Assembly: GCF_023006505.1 (NCBI RefSeq)
Contig: NZ_JALBGV010000025.1
Span: 1 to 64,000, forward strand
Direction of reading: 5' to 3'
DNA: 64,000 nucleotides
DNA from: Neorhizobium sp. SHOUNA12A
GTDB lineage: Bacteria; Pseudomonadota; Alphaproteobacteria; Rhizobiales; Rhizobiaceae
Each line of letters begins with the position of its first letter. The first letter of the stretch is position 1. Positions 1,555 through 41,850 of the stretch are shown one piece after another. The notes beneath the pieces are model-generated. The model was not told the DNA's origin and did no database searches. It was given only the letters and a program-made list of their open reading frames with translations. The translations under genes were made by a program, and so were the position numbers.

Positions 1555-4227
<2,673 letters not shown>

Positions 4228-22920: not shown

Positions 22921-24265
22921 CTAGCTTGCCGTGCGCTCCTCCGCGCGTCTCGCGCGGATGCTGGCGGCGATGAAGGCGCGCGACAGGCCGTGATAAAGTG
23001 GTTCCGGCGAAAGCATGCGCGAGGTGATGTAGCCGAGCATCGACGCCGCCATGATCGGGATGACGGCCTGATGGTTGCCGGTCATCTCGATGATGATCAC
23101 GAAGGCCGTCATCGGCGCCTGCACAACGCCGGCGAAGTAACCCGCCATGCCGAGCAGGGCCGAAAGGGCGACACTGGCCCCGAGGAGCGTTCCGAGTGTT
23201 GCGCCCAACCCGACTCCGACCGATAACGATGGCGCGAAAATACCGCCCGGAATGCCTGAAATCATCGATAGGAAGGTCGCCGCGAGCTTCTCGATGAAAA
23301 ACACCGGCGAGATCGTCTGGCCTTCCAGCATCGATTTTGCCTGATCGTAGCCGGTTCCGAAAGTCTGCCCGCCGGAGACAAGACCGATCGCGGCGACGGC
23401 CAGCCCGCACGCGGCGGCGAGGCCGACAAGCCGCTTTAACGGATCGGGGTGCGCCCAGCGGCGGATGCGGCGCGACGCACGGATCGCAGCGGCGCTGAAG
23501 CCGGCCCCGAGCGCTCCACCGCAGACGCCGCAGACGATTACCATCGCCCAATCGAGGCGCGACGCCGCCATGACGGAGGTCTCACCAAAATAGGTATAAC
23601 TGCCGACCAGTCCGAGCGCCGCAAGGCCCGATACGATAACTGCGGTCAGGACCAGGCCGTTCGAGCGCGATTCATAGGTGCGGCTCATCTCCTCGATCGC
23701 AAAGACGATGCCAGCGAGCGGCGTGTTGAAGGCCGCGGCGATACCGGCGGCCGAACCGGCGAGAATAAGGCCCCGGGGCCTGCGCCATTCCGCCGAAACG
23801 GGCGGCAGCGAGCATGATCGAGGCACCCACCTGAACCGTCGGCCCTTCGCGCCCTATCGAAGCACCGGACAACAGCCCAACGACGGTCAGCACGATCTTG
23901 CCGACGCCAAGCTTCAGCGATAGCAGTCCGAGCCTGTCCGCATCGTCATGGAGATGCCGCGCGGCGATTGCCTGCGGGATACCGCTTCCCTGAGAGTTCG
24001 GAAACACGCGGATCGCCAGCCAGGCGCAGAGGGTAAAGCCGGCGGGTGTCAGAACAATTGGCAGCAGCAAACCGTAGGTCCCGGTTCCGGTCAGGATATC
24101 GAAAAGCCGATGGGCTTCGTCCGCGGCCCGGGCGAAGCCGACGCTGACGACACCGATCGCGATCGCGCCGATCCAGAAAACGATCCGGGGCTTCCAGACG
24201 CGCCAGGAGCCGCGCATGACGCGGGAGCGGCGGAACATCCTGGACCTTCGATTGGGGGTAGTCAT
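22921..24265 (-). pseudogene. ClC-family chloride channel/antiporter gene with a -1/+1 frameshift
   Basis: Two adjacent minus-strand frames together give one ClC protein. The first (24265 down to about 23780) carries GSGIPQAI and the gating-glutamate motif GREGPTVQVGASIM. The second (to 22921) continues with RGLILAGSAAGIAAAFNTPLAGIVFAIEE and GGIFAPSLSVGVGLG. The join falls in CCCCGGGG (23771-23778): removing one base restores ...GGMAQA-RGLILAG..., the expected family sequence. ClC proteins move chloride, often in exchange for protons. Everything else reads well and codon use is normal, so this is either a recent inactivation, a phase-variable homopolymer or a sequencing error. The final C-terminus (SIRARRAEERTAS) reaches a TAG stop. 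Confidence 0.85.
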
Positions 24266-24416
24266 GGAGGGAAGACCTATATTCGCATTCGCTTATTCGC
24301 TTTGGCGGCGATAATTTCAAACCCGTTACACCGAATACGATGTAATCTTTCAACTAAACACCGTCGGGATTGCATTTATTGCGTGACGTTTTTACCTTAA
24401 TCACGAAAAGTTTTTC

Positions 24417-24462
24417 AAAATTGATATGCGTCAATTTTTGATTTGCAATGAACGGGTATGAA
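24417..24462 (+). promoter_or_regulatory. FNR/FixK-type class II promoter of lpiA-atvA
   Basis: TTGATATGCGTCAA (24421-24434) is an FNR/FixK box of the TTGA-N6-TCAA type, set in longer AAAATTGA/TCAATTTT arms (24417-24438). A -10-like TATGAA follows at 24457-24462. The implied start near 24469 puts the box centre at -41.5, exactly the class II activation position. The lpiA ATG is 54 bases further on. The region 24266-24416 shows nothing else. Confidence 0.7.
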
Positions 24463-24522
24463 CCTCACGGGCGCAGGCCCTGACGAACGCTGGCGTAAAG
24501 TTCTTTCTGTGACGGGTAACCT

Positions 24523-25842
24523 ATGGCAGATTTTGCCCAACTCGACGACACCTCCGAGCCGGTTTCCGGTTCGCCGGCAAAGCATTCTGCTCAAACTGCC
24601 GTGTCGATGGGAAGGGTACTGATTGACCGCCTTACCCCAGATACCGGCGTTCTCCTGGCATTCGGTCTGGCCCTGCTTGTGGTTTCGCTGGGCGTCAATC
24701 TTTTCCTGGAGGAAAGCCTGGCGAGGCTCGGCTGGAGCCTGCTTCTGTCGAACAGCGATATTCATGCGCCGACCGGTCTGGCGCTGACGCTGCTGATCGG
24801 CACATTCGCCACCAACCGGCTGCGGCGCCCGCGACGCTGCCGCAAGCCGCCGGCGAACGACGATATGGACCGCGCCATCGAAATCCTCGCCACCCAGCCG
24901 AATGCCAGTGCCGGCCTGGTGCGCCTCGGCGACAAGAAGATCCTGTTTTCCGAGTGCGGCAAGGCTTTCATCATGTACGCCCAGCAGGGCCGTTCCTGGG
25001 TGGCCTTGTTCGATCCTGTCGGCTGTCGCAAGGCCTGGTCCGGCCTGACGCTGAAATTCATGGAACATGCCCGCCAGGCGGGCTGCCGCGCTGTTTTCTA
25101 CCAGGTCTCCCCGGATTTCCTGCCGGTCACCGTCGAAGCCGGGTTGAGGCCCTACAAACTCGGCGAACAGGCGGTCGTCGATCTGACGAAATTCGATCTC
25201 AAGGGCGGCGCCTGGCTGAAGCTGCGCCGGTCCATCAACCGTGCCGAACGCGACGGCCTGCAATTCTCCATGCTGCAGCCGCAGGAGGTGCCGGCTGTCC
25301 TCGATGAGTTGCTTGCCGTTTCCAGTACCTGGCTCGAAGCCCAGAACGCTGCCGAAAAAGGATTTTCGCTCGGCACGTTCCAGCCGCGATATGTTGCGGC
25401 CGGGCCGGTCGCGGTCATCCGCCTCGAAGGCCGCATCGTCGCCTTCGCCAATATCCTTTCGGTCGCGTCCGACGGCGACGCCTTCATCGACCTGATGCGG
25501 CATATTCCCGATACCCATCGCGGCATGATGGACCTGCTCTTCGTGCGCATCATGGAGCACATGAAGGCGCAAGGGTTCCGTACGCTCAATCTCGGCATGG
25601 CGCCGCTTGCCGGTCTCTCGACCCACAACAAGGCGCCGCTCTGGAACCATGTGGGCGAACGGATATTCAGGAGCGGCGAGCGTTTCTATAATTTTCAGGG
25701 CGTGCTGGCATTCAAGGCCAAGTTCGATCCGGAATGGCAGCCGCGGTATCTGGTCGTCTCCGGCCGCGGCATGCCGGTCGTTTCGATGCTCGACATTACC
25801 ATGTTGATCGGTGGCGGGCTGAAGGGCATCCTTCGCAAATGA
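24523..25842 (+). CDS. lpiA: Lysyl-phosphatidylglycerol synthase domain protein (LpiA/MprF, lacking the flippase part)
   Basis: LpiA transfers lysine from lysyl-tRNA to phosphatidylglycerol, lowering the negative charge of the membrane and helping acid and peptide resistance. The 439 residues correspond to only the C-terminal catalytic DUF2156 half of MprF/LpiA (usual length above 800): DMDRAIEILATQPNASAGLVRLGDKKILFSE, GRSWVALFDPVG, LRRSINRAERDGL and HRGMMDLLFVRIMEH are the dual GNAT-like folds. Only two membrane spans precede it (about 40-60 and 82-102), so the N-terminal multi-span flippase is missing. Its stop overlaps the atvA start (ATGA). No remnant of the missing half is visible upstream. 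Confidence 0.85.
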   Translation: MADFAQLDDTSEPVSGSPAKHSAQTAVSMGRVLIDRLTPDTGVLLAFGLALLVVSLGVNLFLEESLARLGWSLLLSNSDIHAPTGLALTLLIGTFATNRLRRPRRCRKPPANDDMDRAIEILATQPNASAGLVRLGDKKILFSECGKAFIMYAQQGRSWVALFDPVGCRKAWSGLTLKFMEHARQAGCRAVFYQVSPDFLPVTVEAGLRPYKLGEQAVVDLTKFDLKGGAWLKLRRSINRAERDGLQFSMLQPQEVPAVLDELLAVSSTWLEAQNAAEKGFSLGTFQPRYVAAGPVAVIRLEGRIVAFANILSVASDGDAFIDLMRHIPDTHRGMMDLLFVRIMEHMKAQGFRTLNLGMAPLAGLSTHNKAPLWNHVGERIFRSGERFYNFQGVLAFKAKFDPEWQPRYLVVSGRGMPVVSMLDITMLIGGGLKGILRK

Positions 25843-27197
25843 GGCTTCTGCCGATTGTTTTTGCCGGTATCACGCTGGCCGCTGCCATCTTCAATATCGT
25901 CTCCGAGCCGGCCCTGAAGACCAAGAGCCTTCCGACGGACCGGATCTCCTTCCCCGAAGGCAAGGCGACCGGCGTCGTGGTGCTGCTTTCGGATGGCGAG
26001 GGCTGGACGGATCGCGAAGAGCAGGTTTCCGAGGTGCTGACCGCGCATGGTGCGCTGGTGGTCGGCGTGGATATTCGCAGATATTATGCGGCGCTCGAAG
26101 AAGAGCGGGACGACTGCCTGTACCTGGTCTCCGATATCGAGACCCTGTCGCATCAGCTGCACCGTTCGGCCGACATTGCCAACTATCACCCGCCGGTCGT
26201 GGCGGGGATCGGTGCCGGCGCGACGCTGGCGCTCGCGATCGCCGCCCAGACACCGGATTCGACGATCGCCGAGACCCTCGCCATCGATCCCCAGACCACC
26301 ATCCCGCTATCGACCATTCTCTGCACGCCGGCCCCCAAGACGCCCGTTCCCGGCGGCACGGTCTACGGCCTGACGGAAGGCGACCTCCCCAATCCGATCC
26401 GTGTCGTCTTCAGTCCGTCAGCCGACGCGGCAGGTCGCATCCATGCCGAAGAACTAAAGGAGATCCATCCCGCGATCGAGTTCCGCGAAACGGCTGAGGG
26501 CGCGGATGTCGCCTTGCTGGAGAATATATCGGCCATCGCCCGGAGGCTCGCCCATTCCGCTTCGCCGCTCAATCTGCCGATCGTGCCGATCCACGCGACG
26601 CCGAAGCACAACACGATGGCGATCATCTATTCCGGCGACGGCGGCTGGCGCGATATCGACCAGCAGCTCGGCGCCTATCTGAAGGAAGAGGGCATCCCGG
26701 TCGTCGGCGTCGATGCGCTGCGTTATTTCTGGAGCGAGCGGACGCCGGAACAGACCGCCGCCGATCTTTCGCGGATCATGACCTCCTACCGAAAGCGGTG
26801 GAACGTCGATAATGTCCTGCTGATCGGATATTCCTTCGGTGCCAATGTCCTGCCGGCCACCTATCGGCTTCTGCCGGAGGCCGACAAGCGGGTGATTACG
26901 CTTGTTTCGCTTCTGGCGCTGTCGCATCACGCGGATTTCGAGATCGACGTGGGCGGCTGGCTCGGTATGCGCGGCACCGGCCACGGTGATCCTGTCGACG
27001 ACCTGCGCAAGGTCGAGCCCTCCAAGATCCAGTGCATCTATGGGCTGAAGGAAAAGGACAGCGGCTGCCCTGCCGTCAGGGAAATCCAAGGCGCCCAGGT
27101 GCTCGCCCGCGAAGGAGGCCACCATTTCGACGGCGACTACCGCGCCCTCAACCGCCTGATCGTCGACAGGGCCGTGGCGCTGATGGCCGTCAACTGA
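25839..27197 (+). CDS. atvA: Lysyl-phosphatidylglycerol hydrolase-like protein AtvA/AcvB
   Basis: A 452-residue periplasmic protein that is the usual partner of LpiA. AcvB of Agrobacterium is known to hydrolyse lysyl-phosphatidylglycerol and to support virulence; AtvA of Rhizobium is needed for acid tolerance. An N-terminal export signal (MRLLPIVFAGITLAAAIFNIV) is followed by two alpha/beta halves. The C-terminal VirJ-like half holds GDGGWRDIDQQLGAYLKEEG and the nucleophile motif GYSFGAN. The second half of the active site likely includes the terminal REGGHHFDGDY. The ATG overlaps the lpiA stop, so the synthase and hydrolase are produced in a coupled ratio. Confidence 0.9.
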   Translation: MRLLPIVFAGITLAAAIFNIVSEPALKTKSLPTDRISFPEGKATGVVVLLSDGEGWTDREEQVSEVLTAHGALVVGVDIRRYYAALEEERDDCLYLVSDIETLSHQLHRSADIANYHPPVVAGIGAGATLALAIAAQTPDSTIAETLAIDPQTTIPLSTILCTPAPKTPVPGGTVYGLTEGDLPNPIRVVFSPSADAAGRIHAEELKEIHPAIEFRETAEGADVALLENISAIARRLAHSASPLNLPIVPIHATPKHNTMAIIYSGDGGWRDIDQQLGAYLKEEGIPVVGVDALRYFWSERTPEQTAADLSRIMTSYRKRWNVDNVLLIGYSFGANVLPATYRLLPEADKRVITLVSLLALSHHADFEIDVGGWLGMRGTGHGDPVDDLRKVEPSKIQCIYGLKEKDSGCPAVREIQGAQVLAREGGHHFDGDYRALNRLIVDRAVALMAVN

Positions 27198-27305: not shown

Positions 27306-27539
27306 ATGGCTGTGGAGGCTGACTTGCAGACCGTTGTTGAGTTGCCAGAAGCTGAAGTCGAGGCACTGGACCGTCTGGCGCAGAAGGAAAACATATCTCG
27401 GTCTGTTCTGATCGAGCGTGCTGTGCGCGATTTTCTGCAAAAAAGTGACAAGCAAAAGAGAGCTGAAGCTTTTGGCCTGTGGGGTGATCGCGCCGTGGAC
27501 GGCTTGGATTTTCAACGAAAAGTCCGCGGTGAATGGTGA
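27306..27539 (+). CDS. Ribbon-helix-helix antitoxin (VapB-like)
   Basis: A 77-residue antitoxin of the CopG/RHH type: TVVELPEAEVEALDRLAQKENISRSVLIERAVRDFLQ, followed by a basic/acidic tail (KSDKQKRAEAFGLWGDRAVDGLDFQRKVRGEW) that would wrap the toxin. It overlaps the PIN-toxin gene by 7 bases. Its start could also be a TTG 18 bases downstream, preceded by GGAGG; the shorter form still contains the whole RHH domain. Confidence 0.88.
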   Translation: MAVEADLQTVVELPEAEVEALDRLAQKENISRSVLIERAVRDFLQKSDKQKRAEAFGLWGDRAVDGLDFQRKVRGEW

Positions 27540-27910
27540 GCGATAGCGCCCTTCTCGATACGAATATTATTGTCGATTATCTGAACTCCGTACCCGAAGG
27601 GCGTGAGGAATTTGAACGATACGGAAATCCATGCATCAGCATTGTGACGTGGATGGAGGTGCTCGTCGGCGTGCCTCCACATCTTGCTGCGGCAACCCGA
27701 GAATTCCTGAATGCTCTGAATATCATCGCGCTCGACGATGCGGTTGCCGAGCGGGCTGTGGCTCTTCGCCAGAGGCATAAGATGAAGCTACCCGATGCGA
27801 TCATCTGGGCGAGCGCGGATATTCATTCAATGCTGCTCGTCACAAGGAACACGAAGGACTTTCCTGCAAATCTGCCGGGAATTCGCGTACCTTACGTTCT
27901 GCGCCACTGA
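27533..27910 (+). CDS. vapC: PIN-domain ribonuclease toxin (VapC-like)
   Basis: A 125-residue PIN-domain protein. VapC toxins cleave specific tRNAs or rRNA with a metal ion held by acidic residues. Visible are the first Asp in SALLDTNIIVDYLN, a Glu in TWMEVLVG, and the later acidic pair in KLPDAIIWASADIHSMLLVTRNTKDF. All four conserved acidic positions appear present, so it should be active. The overlapping upstream antitoxin confirms the pairing. Its stop abuts the convergent betA stop without a gap. Confidence 0.92.
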   Translation: MVSDSALLDTNIIVDYLNSVPEGREEFERYGNPCISIVTWMEVLVGVPPHLAAATREFLNALNIIALDDAVAERAVALRQRHKMKLPDAIIWASADIHSMLLVTRNTKDFPANLPGIRVPYVLRH

Positions 27911-33058: not shown

Positions 33059-33330
33059 GCCGCGCGCTCTGCTGCGGATGGGCCGCGATACGTCATCACC
33101 TGCAATGCCGCCTTCGGGGAGGGTGCTCGTTACGCTTCGTCTCTTGGCTGTCACCATTTCGATCGTGCCTTAGATTCCCTCAGTGAAATGAGTTATTTTT
33201 GATCCTCTCGCCAATCAAGAAGCGATTGCGAACCTTCCTGTCGCAAAAGCGCGCCGTTGACCCGGATCAAGCCTACTCCACATCTTATCCCTTAATGTTC
33301 GGGTGAGGTTCTTGCAAAAGGGGGTTGGCC

Positions 33331-33879
33331 ATGACGTTTGGTCTGGATACGCCGTCGGTCGCGACGGTCCGTGATAAGTGGGGCTGGTTTCTGGCCCTCG
33401 GCATTCTGTTGCTGATCCTCGGTTTTCTCGCCCTCGCCAATCTCTTGGTGGCGACCGTCGCGTCGGTCTTTTACATTGGCATGATGATGCTGACGGGTGG
33501 CATCGCCTATCTCGTCCATGCTTTCCAGGTGAAAGGCTGGGATCATATCCTGTTCTGGGCGGCAAGCGGCATCCTCTATACCATTGCCGGTCTGCTCGCC
33601 TTCTGGAATCCGGCGCTGACCGCCGCCATCGTTACCTTCTTCATAGCGATGGCGCTGATCGTCGCGGGCATTTTTCGCCTCTGGATCGGGCTCAAGATGC
33701 GGCCGATGCGAGGTTCCGGATGGTTCATTTTCGGCGGCGTCATAACAGGGCTTGCGGGTCTCGTCATCGCCTTCGGCTGGCCGGTCAACAGCCTTTGGAT
33801 CCTCGGCCTGTTCTTGGCGATCGATCTCACGATACAGGGCTGGGCACTGATTGCGCTGGCGCTTGCGGCCAAGGCCTGA
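33331..33879 (+). CDS. HdeD family (DUF308) membrane protein
   Basis: A 182-residue inner-membrane protein with six predicted spans, alternating LALGILLLILGFLALAN, VFYIGMMMLTGGIAYL, ILFWAASGILYTIAGLLAFW, AIVTFFIAMALIVAGIFRL, GWFIFGGVITGLAGLVIAFG and LWILGLFLAIDLTIQGWALIAL. This is the DUF308 triple-hairpin pattern of HdeD, an acid-stress membrane protein in Escherichia coli; function in rhizobia is unproven. AGGGGG six bases before the ATG fixes the start. It stands alone. Confidence 0.85.
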   Translation: MTFGLDTPSVATVRDKWGWFLALGILLLILGFLALANLLVATVASVFYIGMMMLTGGIAYLVHAFQVKGWDHILFWAASGILYTIAGLLAFWNPALTAAIVTFFIAMALIVAGIFRLWIGLKMRPMRGSGWFIFGGVITGLAGLVIAFGWPVNSLWILGLFLAIDLTIQGWALIALALAAKA

Positions 33880-41412: not shown

Positions 41413-41769
41413 ATGTTGATCTTGATTGCAGGCCCTTACCGCTCGGGCACCAATGACGACCCTCAGAAGATGGCCGAGAACCTGAAACGGCTCGAAGCGC
41501 CGTCCCACGCGCTGTTCGAGGCCGGTCACGTGCCGATGATCGGCGAATGGGTGGCGCTGCCGGTCTGGCACGCGGCCGGCGGAAAGCATGTCGGCGACGA
41601 TCTCTACGAGGAGATCTTTCACCCGGTCGCCGGACGCCTGCTGCAGCTCTGCGAAGGCGTGTTGCGTCTGCCGGGTGCCTCCAAGGGCGCTGACAACGAC
41701 GTCAGGATTGCCAATGAGCGCGGCATTCCGGTCTGGCGTCGGCTGGAGGATGTGCCAGGAGTCAGTTGA
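41413..41769 (+). CDS. DUF4406 nucleoside-deoxyribosyltransferase-like protein
   Basis: A 118-residue protein with the nucleoside 2-deoxyribosyltransferase-like fold: MLILIAGPYRSGTNDDPQKMAENLKRLEAPSHALFEAGHVPMIGEWVALP, and LQLCEGVLRLPGASKGADNDVRIANERGIPV. The GPYRSG start and GASKGAD nucleoside-binding loop are typical. DUF4406 members are often in phage or metabolic contexts; substrate is unknown. GGAGAAG precedes the ATG. It is divergent from a DeoR repressor, hinting that a nucleoside or sugar phosphate is the signal. Confidence 0.8.
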   Translation: MLILIAGPYRSGTNDDPQKMAENLKRLEAPSHALFEAGHVPMIGEWVALPVWHAAGGKHVGDDLYEEIFHPVAGRLLQLCEGVLRLPGASKGADNDVRIANERGIPVWRRLEDVPGVS

Positions 41770-41850
41770 CCGGCGTCAATTGATCGCCGGTTTGAGGCTT
41801 TCGGCTTCGAAAAACCGTGTTAGAACATCGCCGCTCAACGGAGGATTTTC

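Follow-up and report, generated by a model that had tools for sequence, protein, structure and literature searches.

A conserved FixK-type box upstream of a flippase-less lpiA-acvB operon in Neorhizobium sp. SHOUNA12A

The window analysed here, a stretch of 64 kb from Neorhizobium sp. SHOUNA12A, carries a two-gene operon for lysyl-phosphatidylglycerol (lysyl-PG) metabolism. The first gene, lpiA (24523..25842, + strand), encodes a protein of 439 amino acids with a phosphatidylglycerol lysyltransferase catalytic domain (PF09924 at residues 122-411) and two likely membrane segments that were identified by eye. This short LpiA aligned only to residues ~500-870, the C-terminal part, of solved full-length MprF/LpiA. 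The N-terminal flippase domain of the full-length protein (about 860 amino acids) is absent from it, and its score of 439.2 bits lies below the cut-off of 600 for bifunctional MprF. The second gene, acvB/atvA (25839..27197, + strand), encodes a lysyl-PG hydrolase (PF06057, VirJ) and, from the start chosen, overlaps the end of lpiA by 4 bases. AcvB matched the AcvB crystal structure 9xhm over most of its length (E value of 9.4e-140) and retains the GYSFGA and HH motifs, the catalytic Ser/His residues being those named in PMC13197417. Directly 5' of the operon, we found a clc chloride channel/exchanger gene and a CysA-like ABC transporter gene. The clc gene (22921..24265, - strand) is divergent and, in this genome, divided between two frames; it is part of the neighbourhood rather than of the promoter, and its two halves share one frame at the corresponding loci L037 and L041. 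A VapC-like PIN-domain toxin gene, identified by a weak match, lies 3' of acvB (27533-27910).

The earlier note on this DNA had presented the operon as the lpiA-atvA pair known for acid tolerance. This description was right for the gene family and wrong for the locus, since the window operon is a second lpiA-acvB copy, encoding an LpiA that has no flippase half. Indeed, the canonical lpiA-acvB, with a full-length LpiA of 860 amino acids and AcvB, is located elsewhere in the genome (L110:2042-5991, on contig C185). The acid-inducible lpiA-atvA/acvB operons of R. tropici, S. medicae and A. tumefaciens share with the window copy the order of a lysyl-PG synthase catalytic domain followed by the AcvB hydrolase, but the window copy differs from them in its short synthase without flippase half, in its locus and in its FixK-type box. 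The tcsA-tcrA-fsrR-lpiA locus of S. medicae is likewise a regulated lysyl-PG operon, whereas the window operon is preceded by clc and the CysA-like gene. FsrR was considered as the regulator and rejected: the S. medicae protein consists of receiver and histidine kinase domains in which Pfam finds no DNA-binding domain, and no TTGA-N6-TCAA occurs between fsrR and lpiA.

Upstream of the short lpiA lies a putative 22-bp operator of the FixK/FNR type, AAAATTGATATGCGTCAATTTT (24417..24438, + strand), the core of which, TTGA-N6-TCAA, reads TTGATATGCGTCAA at 24421-24434. The arms widen to AAAATTGA/TCAATTTT, giving two perfect 8-base arms within 22 bp centred at 24427.5, and the dyad TTGAY-N4-RTCAA, a feature of class II Crp/Fnr sites, is present. 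A -10 element, TATGAA (24457..24462, + strand), follows 22 nt past the box and implies a predicted transcription start near 24469 (+ strand), which would place the centre of the box at -41.5. Hexamers 16 to 18 nt 5' of TATGAA matched TTGACA at no more than two of six positions, and a spacing of 15 gave three of six. Such a weak -35 is as expected for an activator-dependent promoter. A consensus promoter scan returned no promoter here; it requires a final T in the -10 element and is thus blind to TATGAA. Class II promoters with the site at -41.5 are known for FNR of E. coli, and the lpiA promoter resembles them in its 22-bp site at a predicted -41.5 and its -10, and may do so in lacking a good -35; in contrast to E. 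coli FNR, the FixK predicted to act here has no N-terminal cysteine cluster, and oxygen would be sensed upstream by FixL.

We then considered how often this motif occurs by chance. TTGA-N6-TCAA was found at four sites in the window, whereas 100 shuffled versions contained 0.56 on average and never more than 2. The extended form AATTGAYNNNNRTCAATT had no second mismatch-free match in the whole 6.56-Mb genome, and the shorter TTGAYNNNNRTCAA matched at 44 sites genome-wide against 2 for a reversed-pattern control. Among these 44 sites were some located 5' of ccoN/fixN, ccoG/fixG, hemA, hemH and ccmC, which are low-oxygen genes and accepted FixK targets; further sites lie upstream of genes encoding OmpW-, Usp- and DoxX-type proteins and a zinc alcohol dehydrogenase. 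When the 24 sites with a plausible downstream gene were chosen out of the 44 (26 orientations), a TA was present at offset 22 in 7 of the 26 orientations, the highest value of offsets 12 to 34, with fixN and fixG among those lacking it. This weak genome-wide peak indicates that the strict geometry belongs to lpiA more than to the regulon as a whole.

Conservation of the box was investigated in 57 genomes of the genus. A protein search returned LpiA matches in 51 of them, 38 of which have the short type described here, and the DNA upstream of all 38 short lpiA genes was scanned. The full box (TTGAY-N4-RTCAA) was present in 15, a degraded box (TTGAY-N4-RTCA) in 7 and neither in 16. With a weight matrix trained in part on these same lpiA boxes, the full boxes scored 24.2 to 31.3 and three degraded ones (L033-L035) 17.0 to 18.1. 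The other four (L038, L039, L041 and L103) scored 4.5 to 5.6, no better than chance sites in the unboxed genomes, the best of which reached 8.0; these doubtful cases had been termed degraded boxes for a distance to lpiA close to that seen at L036 and L037, which have full boxes. TTGA[TC]-N4-[AG]TCAA served to pick the 15 full promoters, so that the eight TTGA/TCAA columns, invariant by construction, were excluded from the count of conserved positions. Outside the columns fixed by selection, 8 of 106 columns were invariant in a gap-free anchored alignment: the two A before the core, the two T after it, the T of TTGAT, the -10 TA and one other base. Seven of the eight are thus box positions or A/T edges (five) or the -10 TA (two). 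Adding L033-L035 left 7 of 107 columns invariant, and across all 22 boxed promoters a single column remained outside the chosen ones.

The distance from box to TA was exactly 22 nt in all 18 promoters of the first two groups (15 full plus L033-L035), and elsewhere between offsets 12 and 34 a TA was seen in 4 of the 18 at most at any one offset. None of the four doubtful loci had TA at offset 22; in L038 and L039 it lies a single base further on. The retention in relatives of the box, at precisely the same distance from the -10, is the strongest evidence that the box is real. The earlier note had described a TTGA-N6-TCAA box in a 22-bp palindrome centred 41.5 bases before the start implied by TATGAA, which the sequence and the conserved spacing bear out, and had named a lack of conservation in close relatives as one of the outcomes that would refute it; with a full box at 15 of the 38 short lpiA genes and the spacing kept in 18 of 18 counted promoters, conservation holds. 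As read from these alignments, this is the pattern of a box kept by selection with class II geometry. A conserved relic devoid of present function is very unlikely: although 4 of the 22 boxes (L038, L039, L041 and L103) are badly degraded and without a correctly placed -10, box edges and -10 TA are fixed in 15 genomes, in which spacer and flanks vary.

Outside the genus, a full box was found at none of the 13 short lpiA loci in the stretch read (L012, L069, L071-L075 and L104-L109), of which several have uncertain starts and two (L108 and L109) are incomplete; L107 has a degraded box at a different place. In the 2.0 kb retrieved 5' of the canonical lpiA-acvB of the genome, no TTGA-N6-TCAA occurs, and none was found in the stretches fetched upstream of the canonical operon of two relatives. 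Directly 5' of the 22 boxed promoters, we observed cysA in 17 and clc in 4 (this genome, L037, L041 and L046), and L044 matched neither. A second conserved block with arms CGTGR...TCACG (GCGTGACGTTTTTACCTTAATCACGAAAAGTTTTT; 24381..24415, + strand) lies directly 5' of the box. This block is kept in 11 of the 22 aligned boxed promoters, these 11 being near relatives of one another, and may be the site of another regulator; a reading as an ActR/RegR site, by its consensus, was also considered.

Next, the question arises of what protein would bind the box. A regulator outside the Crp/Fnr family (e.g., a MarR-type repressor or an acid-response regulator), for which TTGA-N6-TCAA would be a coincidence, is improbable. 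Two observations would suit such a protein: many of the genome's FixK-like sites, those of fixN and fixG among them, do not have the A/T edges kept in the 15 full promoters, and PMC9048898 describes the regulator of low-pH lpiA-acvB induction outside S. medicae as unknown. However, the exact -41.5 spacing in all 18 counted promoters fits a Crp/Fnr-class activator, and the core agrees with the motif found at fixN, fixG, hemA, hemH and ccmC.

Six Crp/Fnr proteins were read in this genome, three of which, encoded on contigs C160, C173 and C143, have an E-x-x-SR recognition helix. The C160 protein, a FixK of 216 amino acids with an ETVSR helix and without N-terminal cysteines, is encoded behind fixL, fixJ and a small receiver gene (L226 cluster). 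In searches with NCBIfam models, FixJ scored above its curated cut-off; below theirs were FixL (501.7 versus 850 bits, E value of 1.9e-150), FixK (187.2 versus 300 bits, E value of 2.3e-55) and the receiver, which is weakly FixT-like. A stretch of 34 residues in FixL looks haem-PAS-like. The fixL, fixJ and receiver genes were called by position and sequence in 16 neighbourhoods, one of which ends at a contig end, and the family scan covered the neighbourhood of this genome only. Among the best 40 of 1049 plasmid relatives of the C160 FixK, those listed at the top are S. meliloti records, and one S. meliloti FixK gene among the matches listed lies just 5' of ccoNOQP on pSymA.

The cluster and its putative sites resemble the FixLJ-FixK microoxic regulon known in S. 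meliloti, R. tropici and Bradyrhizobium, the likeness extending to the arrangement of fixL, fixJ, a weakly FixT-like receiver and fixK, to the haem-PAS-like FixL and to the TTGA-N6-TCAA boxes at fixN, fixG, hemA, hemH and ccmC. Unlike in that regulon, the target here is a membrane-lipid operon, and the box is kept in four genomes in which no full ccoN was found. Background on the regulon comes in part from PMC3557214 and PMC4417242.

The earlier note had proposed control of the FNR/FixK type, and the two halves of this proposal fared differently. The FixK of the FixL-FixJ-FixK cluster tracks the box, while an Fe-S-type FNR/FnrN was rejected as the main regulator, because an N-terminal cysteine cluster is missing from all six of the Crp/Fnr proteins that were read from the genome. 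Cysteine-cluster Crp/Fnr proteins were observed in two box-bearing relatives (L187 of G048 and L188 of G025), and L185 of G038 may also have such a cluster.

The co-occurrence of box and regulator genes was surveyed across the genus. A FixK of the C160 type (identity of at least 60%) was present in 23 genomes, comprising all 22 with a box, full or degraded, plus G020, a genome devoid of short lpiA. Thus, all 22 boxed and none of the 16 unboxed lpiA genomes have it. FixJ exceeded its cut-off in 26 genomes, i.e., these 23 plus G022, G034 and G035. FixJ was thus found in 22/22 boxed versus 3/16 unboxed lpiA genomes (Fisher's P of 1e-7, ignoring kinship) and, when the four doubtful cases are moved to the unboxed group, in 18/18 versus 7/20 (P of 1.6e-5, again ignoring kinship). 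The association is confounded by phylogeny: on an LpiA tree of 37 genus rows and 3 outgroups (G047, in which lpiA is split over two frames, was omitted), four label changes suffice for three labels over the 37 rows, so that it follows descent. Moreover, lpiA has no box in G022, G034 and G035 despite the presence of fixJ and of a FixK homologue with 50 to 55% identity, which counts against the FixK reading. Each of the 16 unboxed genomes has FixK homologues of 31 to 37% identity, indicating that distant family members do not explain the distribution of the box.

The box could also be a true Crp/Fnr activator site used by another member of the family, such as the ETVSR protein of C173, the EALSR protein of C143 or an NnrR-like, nitric-oxide-responsive protein. 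We regard this as unlikely, while giving it more weight than the other alternatives. Three further Crp/Fnr proteins with an SR helix are indeed among those read: a second ETVSR member near fixNOQP (C173), the EALSR-type protein, whose gene has its own box, TTGATCGATGTCAA, just upstream (C143), and a protein with an HTVSR helix (C77), as in NnrR. These candidates are set against the joint tracking of the box by FixK and FixJ and against the FixK homologues of 31 to 37% identity, helices unread, in every unboxed genome. The FixK of the fixL-fixJ-receiver-fixK cluster is the best candidate regulator of the lpiA box. The presence of fixNOQP was rejected as an explanation of the box, since G025, G029, G038 and G048 keep a full box with no or weak ccoN matches (G038 is 78% complete, and G048 has 6% contamination).

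From the box, its geometry and conservation, and the regulator genes that co-occur with it, all of which were observed, we infer binding, induction, oxygen dependence and a lipid effect at lpiA-acvB. We propose, with a probability of about 0.73, that the locus has an activator-dependent, sigma-70-type promoter under FixK, which would drive the flippase-less lpiA and acvB at low oxygen. At low oxygen, the haem-PAS kinase FixL would phosphorylate FixJ, and FixJ~P would raise fixK expression. A FixK dimer on the 22-bp box at -41.5 would then act as a class II activator, recruiting RNA polymerase to a promoter that has a -10 but a poor -35. Transcription of the short lpiA, for the lysyl-PG synthase without flippase, and of acvB, for the hydrolase, would be expected to increase lysyl-PG turnover in microoxic conditions, apart from the canonical full-length lpiA-acvB. 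As judged from the sequence evidence, the low-oxygen reading of this promoter is well supported. Whether the lineage keeps two lysyl-PG cycles, one of the acid type with flippase and one flippase-less, low-oxygen pair controlled via FixLJ-FixK, we consider an even question.

A conserved FixK-type promoter on the paralogous copy would connect oxygen with a cationic membrane lipid in a way open to direct test, and raises the question of what role a flippase-less synthase plays when paired with a periplasmic hydrolase. If the proposal is true, the oxygen-sensing cascade would have membrane charge among its outputs, and this without need of the cbb3 oxidase (no full ccoN was found in four boxed genomes), and the link of FixLJ-FixK to membrane charge would perhaps be older in the lineage than its symbiotic use. 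In the literature surveyed, consulted in part and with the primary R. tropici and S. medicae lpiA papers aside, there was no report of control of lpiA, mprF or lysyl-PG by FixK, FixJ, FnrN or Fnr or by microaerobic conditions. An acid input to FixK via ActR is possible, fixK being named among the ActR targets in PMC2651895.

The window contains three further FixK-type boxes. TTGACGAGGATCAA (1169-1182) is followed 21 nt later by TATAAA and lies 372 bases before the ATG of ppdK (1555-4227), which encodes a pyruvate phosphate dikinase. TTGACCCGGATCAA (33257-33270) lies 5' of a gene for an HdeD-family (DUF308) membrane protein (33331-33879). The fourth box of the window, TTGACCGGCGTCAA (41766-41779), is located where one reading frame ends, 71 bases 5' of a gene that, by eye, is glutathione S-transferase-like. 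Elsewhere in the genome, three copies of TTGACAGCTGTCAA were observed within 1.4 kb at L169 (contig C175, 7200-12000), and another is present at position 1354 of C156; the cluster at L169 looks like the site of another regulator or a repeat.
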